Shown one piece after another: positions 1,194 through 6,725 of a stretch of DNA of 64,000 nt. The DNA is from Bacteroidota bacterium. Its GTDB lineage: Bacteria > Bacteroidota > Ignavibacteria > Kryptoniales > JAKASW01. The DNA is taken from NCBI GenBank assembly GCA_021789975.1, contig JAJYIT010000004.1:1-64000 (forward strand). The letters are read 5' to 3'. The notes beneath the pieces were generated by a model, which saw nothing but the letters and a program-made list of their open reading frames with translations, had not been told where the DNA came from and ran no database searches. Position 1 is the stretch's first letter. Every line of letters begins with the position of its first letter. The translations under genes were made by a program, and so were the position numbers.

Positions 1194-2819
1194 CTATTCC
1201 GTTTTTCCTTGCTTCAGTTTTCTCCATAGTGTTGACCCGTCGATCCCGAGTATCCGAGCCGCCCTGGCTTTATTTCCACCCGTTAGCTGGATGATCCGGT
1301 TTATGTAGGCAACTTCCATGGCAGCAAGCGTCGGGTTACCTTCCATCACGGATTCGAATGCTGCGTTGGGTGATTTGATCAAAACAACCGGAAGGTGTTC
1401 GGGCAGTATCGTGCCGTCCGGGCTAAGAATTGCAGCTCTCTCAATCACGTTCTCAAGCTCCCTTACATTGCCGGGCCAGCTGTATTCCTGAAGATACTCG
1501 ATGCAGGATGAGTGGATGTGCAGGTCTTTTATTTTGAACTTCTTCGCGAGCCTATCAACGAAGAATCGTGTAAGGGGAAGAATATCCTCCTTTCGCTCTC
1601 TAAGTGGAGGGACTTTCAATTCCATTACTGCGAGCCGGTAGAACAAGTCTTCTCTGAATTTTTTCTGCTTGATCAATTCGCGTAGGTCTTTGTTTGTTGC
1701 TGCAATGACTCTGATATCGACTTTCCGCGATATGCTCTCTCCGATCCGAAGGATTTCGTGCTCCTGCAAGGCACGCAGAATCTTAAGCTGCATCGCCGGA
1801 GTTACATCACCTATCTCATCCAGGAATATCGTACCCCTATCTGCGACCTCGAACAAACCGGCCCTGTCTTTCGTGGCGCCGGTAAATGCCCCGGCCTTGT
1901 GACCGAAGAGTTCACTCTCCAGGAGGGATTCAGGGAGTGCGCCGCAGTTTACCGGAATGAATGGACCCTTAGAGCGAGGAGAAAGTCTGTGAATGTACTT
2001 TGCCATCACCTCTTTACCCGCTCCTGTCTCTCCGGTTATCAGGACAGTAGAGTCGTATGGAGCAACCTTGTTAGCTATAATGAGTAGTTGCTTATATGCC
2101 TTGCTGTGAATTTCTATGAAAGAAGGCTTGACGGTTGTACCGAGCGCCTCGATTTCTTGTTCGTATTTCTTAACGAGTGACGCTTTCTGCCTGAGTCGCT
2201 CAGTAAGTTTTTCCACCTTCTGTTTTATGTCGTGTAACTTGAAATAGTTTATATACGGTTTTATCTCGTCACCCCACGAGGCAGCATCTTTGCCGGTTGC
2301 ATGGCAGACGACGTTGCCCTGTGCCTTGCATGAGCGCTCGATGAAGCACACATCCTGGCCGAGACTGAGGGAAACGAAGCCGCTGAAATATCCGGATAGG
2401 ATCCAGCATACCGGGTGGTCCGTTTTTCCCAATGTGTACAAATGTTCTTCGGCTTCTTTTGAGTCTACCCAAGTGAGTTCCATTACGAAAGTTTTCGAAC
2501 TCTCTTCGTATGACAGCTTGTCGACAATGTCTCTGGCGATGCCTTCTAGGGAGTGCAATTTGCAACCCGCCTTTATCAATTCCAGCTTGTCATCCCACTT
2601 GAAGTTGTTCAACAAAGCTGATGCATCGGCCTGGCCCTGAAAATAGCCGAACCTTGTGAGCACACTTCTTGCGTGGTCCAGGTTGGCGGTGTCCAGCAGA
2701 TCTTTCCTAAACTGCGCAAATGCGTGCAGGCTATGTAGGACGACCTCGCGACCGCCCAATGTCAGGGTTCCCTCGGAAAAGCTGACGATCTCTTCCAGTC
2801 TAAGATCTTCGGATTTCAT
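1194..2819 (-). CDS. Sigma-54-dependent Fis-family activator with N-terminal XylR_N/V4R-type sensor domain
   Basis: [15 protein letters not shown] (Walker A), GAFTGA loop, Walker B FLDEIGD, C-terminal Fis-like HTH ([22 protein letters not shown]). N-terminal region with [36 protein letters not shown] typical of V4R. ORF track begins at TTG 2840; ATG at 2819 (MKSEDL) is more likely. Confidence 0.92.
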
Positions 2820-2821
2820 TC

Positions 2822-2839
2822 TGCAATGGTACCATTGCA
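2822..2839. promoter_or_regulatory. 18-bp perfect palindrome TGCAATGGTACCATTGCA, candidate operator/UAS
   Basis: Direct reading; sits between the divergent sigma-54 activator and the M20/acetate kinase operon. Confidence 0.6.
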
Positions 2840-2909
2840 AGTTACATATGTTTCAGGAGGGCATCAACTGATACTCTTCATATCTGGCGGGAAATGACGC
2901 AATCCTATC

Positions 2910-2924
2910 CGGCACGGGAATTGG
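2910..2924 (+). promoter_or_regulatory. Candidate sigma-54 (-24/-12) promoter CGGCACGggaaTTGG
   Basis: Near match to TGGCACG-N4-TTGC, 37-51 nt upstream of the M20 gene start and about 70 bp from the palindrome. Confidence 0.5.
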
Positions 2925-2960
2925 GCTATTAACAGGTGAGACAAAAAGCGAGGAAACAAG

Positions 2961-4214
2961 ATGTATACTCTATTGAAAGAATATGCGAACATTTTGAGTA
3001 GCGACGCGATCACGTTCGCGTCTGAGCTTGTCAGCACACCGAGTCCGAGTCTTTGTGAGCAAAACGCCGCGAGGTTGGTGGAAAGACGCATGAGCCATCT
3101 CGGATTCGACAAAGTCATCACCGATGACTTCGGAAATGTCATCGGAATAATGTACGGGATCGACTCACATCCGACAGTACTTCTAAACAGTCATATGGAC
3201 ACAGTCCTTCCGGGAAAGGGAGAGACGATTTGGGAGATGCCCCCTTACTCGGGAGCCATTGAGAACCATCGCCTGCATGGCCTCGGCAGTTCAGATTGCA
3301 AGAGTGGAGTTGCCATGCAGATGTACGCTGCATATCTGCTTAAGAAGTCCCTGCTACCTCTCAGAGGGACCCTGGTGGTTGCCGCGACGGTCTCCGAGGA
3401 AAACGGCCTCAGCCTTGGTGTTCAACACCTGCTGTCGAAAACGCTACCTGATATGAAAATAAAAGTCGACTACGCCGTGCTAGGCGAACCGACGAATCTG
3501 GGTTTGTTCTACGGCCACGACGGATGGGCGGAGTTCAGGATTGGTCTTGGCTCCACGAATCCCGATAGCCTCCAGCAGGCTGCAGAAGTGATCTTTCAAA
3601 ATCTGACCGATGCGAGCCGGGAAAGAGTTCTGGAAGGAGGGCTTGAAACCATGAGAGTCGGAAGACCGGAGATTGATGTCCTCACCGGGTCTGCGGGCAT
3701 CAATTTGAACAGGCGGCTGTTCGCAGAAGACGACAGCGAAGGTGTCGCCGAGAAGTTGCGCGATTATAGTCTGCGTAGCCTGGAACAATACGCCGATCGC
3801 GTGGGAAACCAGGAGGACGACTTGAATTTGGACATCCGCATACGAGAAGAAATCCAAAAACTGAACAATGGAGAGTCGGTCCAGGTCAGGTTCGTTACAG
3901 ACGCGTGGGAGACCGATCCGTTTTCACCGTTGGTGGACCGGGCACGACAGGCCCTTGAATCGGCGGGATGCAAAAGCCGTCCGGGAAAGTGGAGACTTCC
4001 ACAGCTCGCTATGGGAACGGCGGGAAGTATTCTTACGAAGCGATTCGGCATTCCGACGATCGGTTACGGCCCCGGCAACGAGGATCAGGCACACGCTCCA
4101 AATGAATTTGTCGAGGTTGATAATATCAGAGAAGGAATTTTAGGCACAGCATCAATAGTCCATAGTCTCGTCGGTACTCCGGTTTTTGGTTGGACCGCAG
4201 ATATGGAGATATAA
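2961..4214 (+). CDS. M20-family metallo-hydrolase (YgeY-like)
   Basis: LLNSHMDTVLPG, GLGSSDCKSGVAMQM, ATVSEENG, AVLGEPTNL: M20 metal-site motifs. Confidence 0.88.
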   Translation: MYTLLKEYANILSSDAITFASELVSTPSPSLCEQNAARLVERRMSHLGFDKVITDDFGNVIGIMYGIDSHPTVLLNSHMDTVLPGKGETIWEMPPYSGAIENHRLHGLGSSDCKSGVAMQMYAAYLLKKSLLPLRGTLVVAATVSEENGLSLGVQHLLSKTLPDMKIKVDYAVLGEPTNLGLFYGHDGWAEFRIGLGSTNPDSLQQAAEVIFQNLTDASRERVLEGGLETMRVGRPEIDVLTGSAGINLNRRLFAEDDSEGVAEKLRDYSLRSLEQYADRVGNQEDDLNLDIRIREEIQKLNNGESVQVRFVTDAWETDPFSPLVDRARQALESAGCKSRPGKWRLPQLAMGTAGSILTKRFGIPTIGYGPGNEDQAHAPNEFVEVDNIREGILGTASIVHSLVGTPVFGWTADMEI

Positions 4215-4323: not shown

Positions 4324-5619
4324 ATGACGACGAAGGAATCGGGTATCGCGAAGGCTTCCAGCAACATCCTTGTTTTCAATGTCGGGAGTTCTTCGCTGAA
4401 GTATAAAATGACCTCTATGCCGTCAGGCAAAGAGCTCCTCGGGGGTGAAGTTCAAAGGATCGGAGCAAAGACGGCTGAACCCTCCATGATCATTCACTTC
4501 AGTGGGGGGAGAAAGTCGGTTTATAATAAGAAGATATCCGGATATGGGGAGGCTTTAACTGAAGTTATCGGCATCATATCATCGGAAGACTACCCGCATC
4601 CCGATTTCATTGCACACCGGTATGTGCATGGTGGTACACAATTCAGAAGCGACTCAATTATTACGTACGACGATCTTCATGCACTCCATGAGACCGAAGA
4701 GTTTGCCCCGGTTCACAATCCTCCTGTAATCGAGCTGATTAGGCGTTGCATGGAACAGTATCCCGATATTCCGCAGGGTATAATCCTCGATACTTCGTTC
4801 CACTCTACCATACCCGAGTACGCCGGCAGCTACCCGTTGCCGAAGGATTTGACAAACCGATTTGGAATACGAAAGTATGGGTTTCATGGCATCAGTCACC
4901 AGTATGTCGTGGAAGAGGCAGCACAGTTCCTCGGTATCCCGCTGGAGAGGTTCAACGCTGTAAGTTGTCATCTGGGGAGCGGTGGGGCGAGTCTGTGTGC
5001 GGTTGTCGGGGGCAACTCGGTGGACAATTCAATGGGATTCTCACCGCTCCAGGGCCTTGTAATGAGCACTAGAAGCGGAGACATCGACCCCTCCATTGTT
5101 TTAAAGATGATCGTTTATGCCGGTGGGGACCACTCGAAGGTCAACCGCCTTCTGAATAAAAAGAGCGGAGTGCTCGGCCTGTCTGGTATGTCTTCGGACA
5201 TAAGGGATATTATCAACATGTCTGTTAATTACGATGACGAGAGAGCTCAGACTACATTGGATGTGTACTTGTGGAGAATCAAGAAATATCTTGGGGCGTA
5301 CCTGGCCGCCGTCGGTCGTGTGGATGCTATTCTGTTCACGGACACCATCGGTGAATCCGTGCCGCTGGTAAGGGAGACGGTGTGCAGAAATCTCGATTTC
5401 TTCGGGGTGAAGCTTGACGAATGGAGAAATTCACACTTGTCGGGGTTTCCATACGATGTCTCTGTTCACGGCAGCAATGTTCGCATCGTTGTTGTCAAGA
5501 CTGACGAAGAGAAGGGAATTGCGAGAAGGGCGTACGAGCTGGCAGGATTAGGAGGAGGAACATCAATCGCCGAAAGTGATGGAACGAGGGGCATTCCAGA
5601 AGAAGAGGCAGACAAATGA
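4324..5619 (+). CDS. ackA: Acetate kinase / acetate-propionate family kinase
   Basis: VFNVGSSSLKYK, AHRYVHGG, ILDTSFH, RKYGFHGISHQY, CHLGSGGAS, MSTRSGDIDPS, KTDEEKGIARRAY. Confidence 0.92.
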   Translation: MTTKESGIAKASSNILVFNVGSSSLKYKMTSMPSGKELLGGEVQRIGAKTAEPSMIIHFSGGRKSVYNKKISGYGEALTEVIGIISSEDYPHPDFIAHRYVHGGTQFRSDSIITYDDLHALHETEEFAPVHNPPVIELIRRCMEQYPDIPQGIILDTSFHSTIPEYAGSYPLPKDLTNRFGIRKYGFHGISHQYVVEEAAQFLGIPLERFNAVSCHLGSGGASLCAVVGGNSVDNSMGFSPLQGLVMSTRSGDIDPSIVLKMIVYAGGDHSKVNRLLNKKSGVLGLSGMSSDIRDIINMSVNYDDERAQTTLDVYLWRIKKYLGAYLAAVGRVDAILFTDTIGESVPLVRETVCRNLDFFGVKLDEWRNSHLSGFPYDVSVHGSNVRIVVVKTDEEKGIARRAYELAGLGGGTSIAESDGTRGIPEEEADK

Positions 5620-6725
5620 AAAGGCTGATCGTACTTGTACCGGAAGGTTTGTTCATGGAATATTTTGTCTATGATTTGCCCGAGATCAGAACCACGTGCC
5701 GCGATTGTCATCCTGAATATCAGCGTGGTGGAAGGATGAGGTTCAGGGGATCGGGAGCATCGCTCGCTTCAATAAAAGGAACGATAGAAGGTTACAGTCC
5801 GGATAGTGTCGCGGTCCGGGTGCGTTACGGTGGGAGTAGATTCAAGGATGTTTCCGTGTACGACAGATCGCTGTTGCCGGAACTGGAGAAATTGATACCG
5901 ATATCGCCGCTTGATCTGCCGCCGGTAATAAAGCTGCTGAAGACTCTGGACCGGGTTGTCCCGCCGCCGCAGATACTGCTGTTCTTCGAGACTTCTTTCT
6001 TCAGCAATCTGCCGGTGCAGGAGAGGATCTACGCGATCGATGGGATATTATCCGGCTCACGCGTACCTCAGCCGGATCAATACCGGAAGTTCGGCTACCA
6101 CGGCTTGTACCACGAAGCTGCTGTAATCGGGATTAGAAAGAGAAACCCTGACGTGCGCAAGATCGTTTCGATATGCCTCGATTCCGTGCCGGAGCTTGCG
6201 GCGATCAATGCCGGAAGGCCGGTTATGGTTTCGAGCGGCTCAACTCCTCTCGAGGGCTTGCCCGGAGACAGAACTTGCGGGGACATAGATCCCGGTGTTG
6301 TTCTCTTTTTAGAGCAGAGGAGCGGGCCTGAAATGGTCAATGAGATTCTAACGCGTAGAAGCGGGCTGTCCGCGATGTCCGGTAAGACGGTCACACTTGA
6401 CGATGTTTTTGAGGATGAAATCACAAACCGGGAGGCAAGCGACCTTTTCAAATACCGGGTGCTGCTCGAATGTGGTTCGGCCATCGCTTTGATGGGAGGG
6501 CTTGATGCAGTAGTATTTTCAGGTAAGTATATCCAATCGGCAGAGAAGCTTTCCGGCTGGCTTACGTCTAAATTGTCAGGACACGGCGTGTCAGGCTCAC
6601 GCATACCGCAGGAAGTTCCGGATATTGAAGAAAGCAGAATTCCGGTTTTCTATTCAAGAGACCCTTTAGACAGGATAATCGCGGAGAGATGTTTGGAAAT
6701 GGACGTCTCAGCAGTCGGGTACTGA
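5616..6725 (+). CDS. Divergent acetate-kinase paralog, probable pseudoenzyme
   Basis: ATGA overlap with ackA stop. Retains VRVRYGG, FETSFF, KFGYHGLYH, GDIDPGVVLFL but lacks NxGSSSxK, HLGSGAS, TRSGDID register and the C-terminal NEE motif. Confidence 0.8.
   Translation: MKRLIVLVPEGLFMEYFVYDLPEIRTTCRDCHPEYQRGGRMRFRGSGASLASIKGTIEGYSPDSVAVRVRYGGSRFKDVSVYDRSLLPELEKLIPISPLDLPPVIKLLKTLDRVVPPPQILLFFETSFFSNLPVQERIYAIDGILSGSRVPQPDQYRKFGYHGLYHEAAVIGIRKRNPDVRKIVSICLDSVPELAAINAGRPVMVSSGSTPLEGLPGDRTCGDIDPGVVLFLEQRSGPEMVNEILTRRSGLSAMSGKTVTLDDVFEDEITNREASDLFKYRVLLECGSAIALMGGLDAVVFSGKYIQSAEKLSGWLTSKLSGHGVSGSRIPQEVPDIEESRIPVFYSRDPLDRIIAERCLEMDVSAVGY

Follow-up and report, generated by a model that had tools for sequence, protein, structure and literature searches.

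An acetate kinase paralogue with degenerate catalytic motifs, paired with a variant AckA in scattered bacterial phyla

The window analyzed here, a stretch of 64,000 nucleotides from a Bacteroidota genome, encodes two acetate kinase homologues in tandem: a variant acetate kinase that carries the catalytic residues (AckA; positions 4324..5619, + strand), identified by its PF00871 match, a residue table, and its place in the tree, and a 369-aa paralogue (AckB; 5616..6725, + strand). The Pfam match, a structure model, orthologues, and dN/dS support AckB as an intact, conserved and, judging from its motifs, catalytically degenerate acetate kinase paralogue. We propose that the pair forms a two-subunit acyl kinase, probably of the Pi/PPi type, with AckA as the catalytic and AckB as a noncatalytic, structural or ligand-sensing subunit, a reading to which we give about an even chance.

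The AckB paralogue

The AckB reading frame opens with an ATG that overlaps the AckA stop codon as ATGA (5616-5619) and contains no internal stops. The preliminary description had called the gene intact and coupled to ackA, which the open 369-aa frame and the ATGA overlap confirm, and since the frame is open and kept in other genera, a frameshift or annotation artifact is ruled out. AckB matches PF00871 with 104.9 bits (cut-off, 22; E = 4.8e-30) over profile positions 85 to 331 only, and scores 97.8 bits against TIGR00016, under the subfamily cut-off of 293.4 bits, as do its relatives. The AF2 model of AckB (pLDDT 87, pTM 0.88) finds acetate kinases as its top structural matches (TM ~0.75), and an acetate kinase fold is predicted for AckA and AckB alike by single-chain AF2 models. 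A single-sequence scan of the genome contigs gave no match.

With respect to residues (numbered here as in the Methanosarcina thermophila acetate kinase), the alignment shows that the AckB of the window is missing N7, S10 to S12, and K14 and carries D148E, H152F, H208C, R241T, G331K, and E384L, so that every motif loss listed for it beforehand is present in the alignments. The "shifted Arg" of RTCGDIDP, which had been counted among these changes, is indeed seen in the window but is specific to it; the AckB family consensus is TTCGEIDP, and AckB therefore keeps no catalytic Arg. We distinguish two types of AckB, corresponding to two genomic settings described below. The PHOSPHATE1 residues N7, S10 to S12, and K14, together with H208, R241, and E384, are lost in types I and II, barring sporadic single residues. 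In type I, the PHOSPHATE2 segment is replaced (CLDSVPEL in the window; 6174..6197, + strand) by one that the type I alignment shows to be conserved in its own right (Cys in 29/31, Leu in 31/31, Pro in 28/31, and Glu in 29/31), and the ADENOSINE motif is replaced by a sequence that is mostly FSG(R/K)Y (FSGKY in the window; 6516..6530, + strand). D148 has become Glu in type I, and F152, C208, P213, E214, G238, G330, and Y332 are near invariant there.

The acyl pocket is largely preserved in type I AckB, with R91 in 24/31, H123 in 23/31, H180 in 27/31, P232 in 30/31, and position 122 being Leu in 21 and Met in 7 sequences (28/31 L or M); the AckB of the window itself has Asp at 123 in place of the acyl-pocket His. 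In type II AckB the pocket is largely gone, with R91, H123, and H180 lost. Carboxylate sensing thus appears possible in type I AckB only and, because the type II pocket is lost, is not a role common to both types. To go by these residues, a role that types I and II share must be structural or regulatory.

The variant AckA and the Entamoeba enzyme

AckA matches PF00871 with 369 bits (E = 2.2e-110) over profile positions 2 to 392, its conserved portion beginning near 4360. It had served beforehand as the sequence against which AckB was compared, and it is itself unusual: its HLGSGGAS (4969..4992, + strand), an extended PHOSPHATE2 loop with an extra Gly in the alignment with the M. thermophila and Entamoeba histolytica enzymes, and its ADENOSINE motif FTDTIGES (5335..5358, + strand), with Asp 330 and Thr 331 (compare FTDQMGLE in the E. 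histolytica acetate kinase, EhACK), differ from the HLGNGxS and FTGGIGEN of ordinary acetate kinases, which the canonical AckA of the same genome (contig C33) carries. Compared with canonical AckA (M. thermophila 1G99/1TUU; TIGR00016), the AckA of the window has the same fold and retains the catalytic residues, whereas canonical AckA has HLGNGxS and FTxGIGEN and no AckB partner, and AckB is without the phosphate-binding residues.

The same departures are found throughout the AckAs that are paired with an AckB. They retain the catalytic set N7, S10 to S12, R91, H123, D148, H180, H208, R241, and E384, and the acetate-pocket residues V93, L122 (as L/I), P232, and F179 are conserved; K14 is present only in type I AckA, type II having mostly Thr, like EhACK. 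The PHOSPHATE2 motif of the aligned paired AckAs is of the HLGSGGAS or HLGTGGSS type, with a second Gly in the loop, N211 is changed to Ser or Thr, and G239 is changed to Ser. Position 330 is Asp in 39/39 paired AckAs, and position 331 is T/S or D/E, never Gly (Thr in type I and Asp in type II, with Gln in EhACK). In the M. thermophila enzyme, mutation of N211, G239, or G331 lowers ATP activity by ~6- to 200-fold (PMC4390882).

The E. histolytica acetate kinase is described as the only characterized Pi/PPi-dependent one and as unique to Entamoeba (PMC5517563). EhACK (PDB 4H0O) and the AckA of the window share the extended PHOSPHATE2 loop, the change of N211 to S/T and of G239 to S, Asp 330, and a non-Gly residue at 331; they differ in that residue 331 is Gln in EhACK and Thr or Asp in the bacterial AckAs, and in that an AckB gene accompanies the bacterial ones. 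Since these active-site changes match those of the PPi-dependent Entamoeba enzyme, AckA likely uses Pi/PPi rather than ADP/ATP. In that work, Dang and Ingram-Smith reported the signature in only four named bacterial sequences (Anaerolineaceae), noted as possible relatives, and some metagenome ones, left PPi use by such bacterial enzymes open, and saw no switch of donor upon simple changes to the pocket (PMC5517563). The four Anaerolineaceae kinases resemble the AckAs described here in the extended PHOSPHATE2 loop and the ADENOSINE Asp, with Asp at 331 as in type II AckA; the difference is that the kinase is treated alone there, no partner gene being mentioned in the sections concerned (PMC5517563).

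The relationship to EhACK extends beyond the motifs. Among PDB entries, a type II AckA scores highest against the Entamoeba enzyme (323 bits, versus 294 for that of M. thermophila), and in FastTree analyses of 89 taxa with all motif columns removed, EhACK nests within type II AckA in 97/100 bootstraps, while all paired AckAs and EhACK group together in 88/100. Convergence of the motifs as the cause of this grouping is rejected, as the grouping survives removal of the motif columns. Taken together, the signature, the PDB match, and the nesting of EhACK make PPi use by the bacterial paired AckAs a good inference. Recombinant EhACK shows activity without any AckB (PMC9983610), which indicates that the partner is dispensable for PPi chemistry as such.

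Distribution, pairing, and genomic settings

Orthologues of AckB are present in five genus-mates at 46 to 52% identity, with a remnant in a sixth (G007) and a divergent, 28% identical version in a seventh (G008). A profile search recovered 44 AckB loci from many phyla, under record labels that include Bacteroidetes, Ignavibacteriae, KSB1, Lentisphaerae, Planctomycetes, Desulfobacter, Kiritimatiellales (including the cultured Pontiella sulfatireligans), Glassbacteria, Polyangiaceae, Omnitrophota, Marinamargulisbacteria, Sumerlaeota, Auribacterota, Raymondbacteria, Acidobacteria, and Thermoleophilia; because most are MAGs, any single label may be mistaken. At 41/44 loci, AckB directly follows an AckA on the same strand; of the three others, one has an internal deletion, one is a C-terminal fragment, and one lies at a contig edge. 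The genes overlap at 24 of 35 junctions, 10 of these 35 by exactly 4 bp. For pairs of sequences that are not saturated, dN/dS is 0.06 to 0.29 for AckB and 0.035 to 0.16 for AckA, indicating purifying selection on both. The suggestion of selection that the preliminary description drew from 369 stop-free codons is thereby borne out; it had named absent orthologues or a dN/dS near 1 as grounds for abandoning the idea, and we find orthologues present and AckB ratios well away from that value.

Searching with an AckA profile instead, we found AckAs with the signature in 9/241 genomes of the Pontiella phylum, 2/396 of the window's own phylum, and, in the phyla of other records, 1/246 (Phycisphaerae, L069), 1/198 (Desulfobacter), 1/82 (KSB1), and 1/297 (Acidobacteria), the sole signature match in most phyla being the genome used as the center of the search. 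AckB adjoins the signature AckA in 15/15 genomes found by AckA score alone, five of which (L089 and L093 to L096) are absent from the AckB search. AckB is absent from the flanks of all 72 canonical AckA loci inspected for it, and chance adjacency of the two genes is rejected on this count; 19 additional high-scoring AckAs have the canonical loop as well. The counts from the AckA-only search thus indicate a module that is rare and patchy but tightly linked. A canonical high-scoring AckA is also found in 27/29 pair-bearing genomes, which argues against a housekeeping role for the pair, and a phosphotransacetylase homologue is present in 25/26 genomes checked.

Both AckB (support, 0.999) and paired AckA (0.973) are monophyletic, and the splits between types I and II match between the two trees. 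Within type I, AckA and AckB distances are correlated (r = 0.85; 0/2,000 permutations as high), a value that is partly due to the shared history of the loci, and AckB evolves faster, with a mean type I tree distance of 3.0 versus 1.4 for AckA.

The type I setting is that of the window, in which a divergent sigma-54 activator is followed by M20-AckA-AckB. The first gene of the operon encodes an M20 metallohydrolase (ArgE/DapE/YgeY-like; 2961..4214, + strand; PF01546, 7e-27), and the divergent gene encodes a sigma-54 enhancer-binding regulator with XylR_N, V4R, AAA+, and HTH_8 domains (1194..2840, - strand; homologues begin near 2819). A putative sigma-54 -24/-12 site, CGGCACGGGAATTGGG (2910..2925, + strand), lies ~35 bp before the M20 start and has a weak -12 element. 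Across the family, 29/41 pairs are accompanied by the M20 gene, the metal-ligand positions of which are conserved, and 24/41 by the sigma-54 regulator. Sites with at most two mismatches occur on the M20 side in 19/23 intergenic regions and on the other strand in 1/23, with 2.1 expected from shuffles. We observe that the -12 element reads TTG(A/G), not TTGC, in the window's genus (window 2910-2925; L044, L045, L048, and L064), and that near-perfect TGGCAC-N5-TTGC sites are found in several other phyla. A YfiT-family bacillithiol transferase (592-1116, + strand; NF009807, 244 bits, over the cut-off) adjoins the regulator in several genus-mates.

In the type II setting, AckA and AckB are followed by a FolE2-like protein, which accompanies 7/41 pairs and matches PF02649 but falls far under the NCBIfam FolE2/MptA cut-offs (L082 8929-9723, L080 9179-9961, L170, L042, and others). 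In two type II genomes, no more than ~5 kb separates the pair from canonical ackA-pta, a hint of acetyl-phosphate metabolism. Genus-mates that lack the pair have a membrane PPase just as often, so that its presence, considered as a possible sign of PPi metabolism, does not discriminate within the genus.

Several further loci are of note. The window's genome (G000; 4.7 Mb) holds, besides its canonical AckA on contig C33, another acetokinase (C65) and a butyrate kinase (C37), the last followed by a phosphate acyltransferase homologue (L005 349-2436) and thus part of a separate buk-ptb-like pair. A genome of the Pontiella phylum (L100; G484 contig C55:259468-261923) has tandem canonical-looking acetate kinases (HLGNGSS and HLGKGCS) and no AckB. 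A Raymondbacteria MAG (L174; G318 contig C38) has a second AckA-AckB pair with a distant M20 upstream, which may bridge types I and II.

A possible two-subunit acyl kinase and its alternatives

That AckB is intact, conserved, degenerate, and nearly always placed after ackA makes a dedicated pseudokinase subunit the best reading, as had been proposed from the window alone, with the correction that its partner belongs to an Entamoeba-type clade and is not a normal AckA. AckA would retain acyl-phosphate chemistry, most likely with acetyl phosphate or a related acyl phosphate on one side of the phosphate transfer and Pi/PPi on the other. AckB would most likely take the place of one of the two protomers in the usual homodimer, where it would stabilize or regulate AckA, with the sensing of a carboxylate ligand as one possible means, and the divergent sigma-54 activator, with its small-molecule V4R domain, would turn on the M20 hydrolase-AckA-AckB operon. 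We infer the AckA-AckB complex, the inactivity of AckB, the use of PPi, the physiological substrate, and the link to M20. Counting against this reading are the activity of recombinant EhACK in the absence of a partner, the residue at 331, which differs from the Gln of EhACK, the failure of simple pocket changes to alter the donor (PMC5517563), the lost acyl pocket of type II AckB, and the membrane PPase that does not track the pair.

A possible, though not a probable, variant keeps the two subunits and changes the chemistry, the donor not being PPi or the acid not acetate; the kinase might, for example, take up a carboxylate that the M20 enzyme sets free or use another phosphoryl donor. Residue 331, Thr or Asp where EhACK has Gln, is in keeping with this, as is the usual presence of a separate canonical AckA, and the linkage to M20 in type I and to the FolE2-like protein in type II suggests pathway-specific roles. 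The active-site departures common to the clade and the nesting of EhACK within it nevertheless favor Pi/PPi, and both the conserved acetate-pocket residues of AckA and the canonical ackA-pta near two type II pairs speak against this variant. It is unlikely that AckB instead catalyzes a novel reaction itself (relying, for example, on the Cys that replaces H208 and on the CLEPxPE segment) and is linked to AckA only by the operon: the near-invariant residues of type I would fit, but most of them are absent from type II (Y/H at 208), although both types adjoin AckA, and Pfam and NCBIfam recognize no known active-site pattern in AckB.

That AckB is a relic, a decaying tandem duplicate of ackA, is highly improbable: relic or drift is rejected by dN/dS, by intact frames across many phyla in a monophyletic AckB, and by a pairing so strict that the signature AckA is always accompanied by AckB in the sampled genomes, against which stand the faster evolution of AckB and one loss in a genus-mate. 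In this genus-mate (G007 contig C1; L041 7370-8510 = L050), a single deletion fuses the C-terminal part of the regulator to AckB codon ~82 and removes M20, AckA, and the AckB N terminus, which implies that this organism can do without the cluster, unless the assembly is collapsed.

A pseudokinase subunit of the ASKHA superfamily, which the preliminary description did not recognize as described, is not new as such, since TsaB, a paralogous subunit of the catalytic ASKHA protein TsaD without the usual nucleotide- and metal-binding fold, is a precedent (PMC9654439). Like TsaB-TsaD, which acts in t6A synthesis, the AckA-AckB pair joins a catalytic ASKHA protein to a paralogous, putative subunit that has a defunct nucleotide site and co-occurs with it strictly. 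The two systems differ in that function and interface are unrelated, and in that TsaB is truncated in the C-lobe and AckB reduced in the N-lobe. A search of open-access full text, with most subscription journals outside its scope, found no description of an acetate kinase pseudokinase, heterodimer, or pseudoenzyme, or of AckB.

Given that a canonical acetate kinase is usually present beside it, it is conceivable, as speculation, that the pair could swap PPi and ATP via acetyl phosphate. We regard as doubtful the fuller picture in which rare but widespread bacterial acetate kinases are heteromeric and PPi linked, a pseudokinase with a preserved acyl pocket regulating the PPi-using subunit and sigma-54 controlling the exchange of ATP and PPi pools beside the ordinary ATP kinase, and in which Entamoeba took up the catalytic subunit alone; if true, this uptake would account for how its unique enzyme arose. 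The analysis also carries a warning, in that family searches label AckA and AckB alike as acetate kinase. The clade of the PPi-dependent Entamoeba acetate kinase can now be followed through many bacterial phyla, with the kinase paired with a conserved, catalytically degenerate paralogue. Two questions thereby come within reach of direct tests: do bacteria possess PPi-linked acetate kinases, and of what use is a pseudokinase subunit to an ASKHA acyl kinase?
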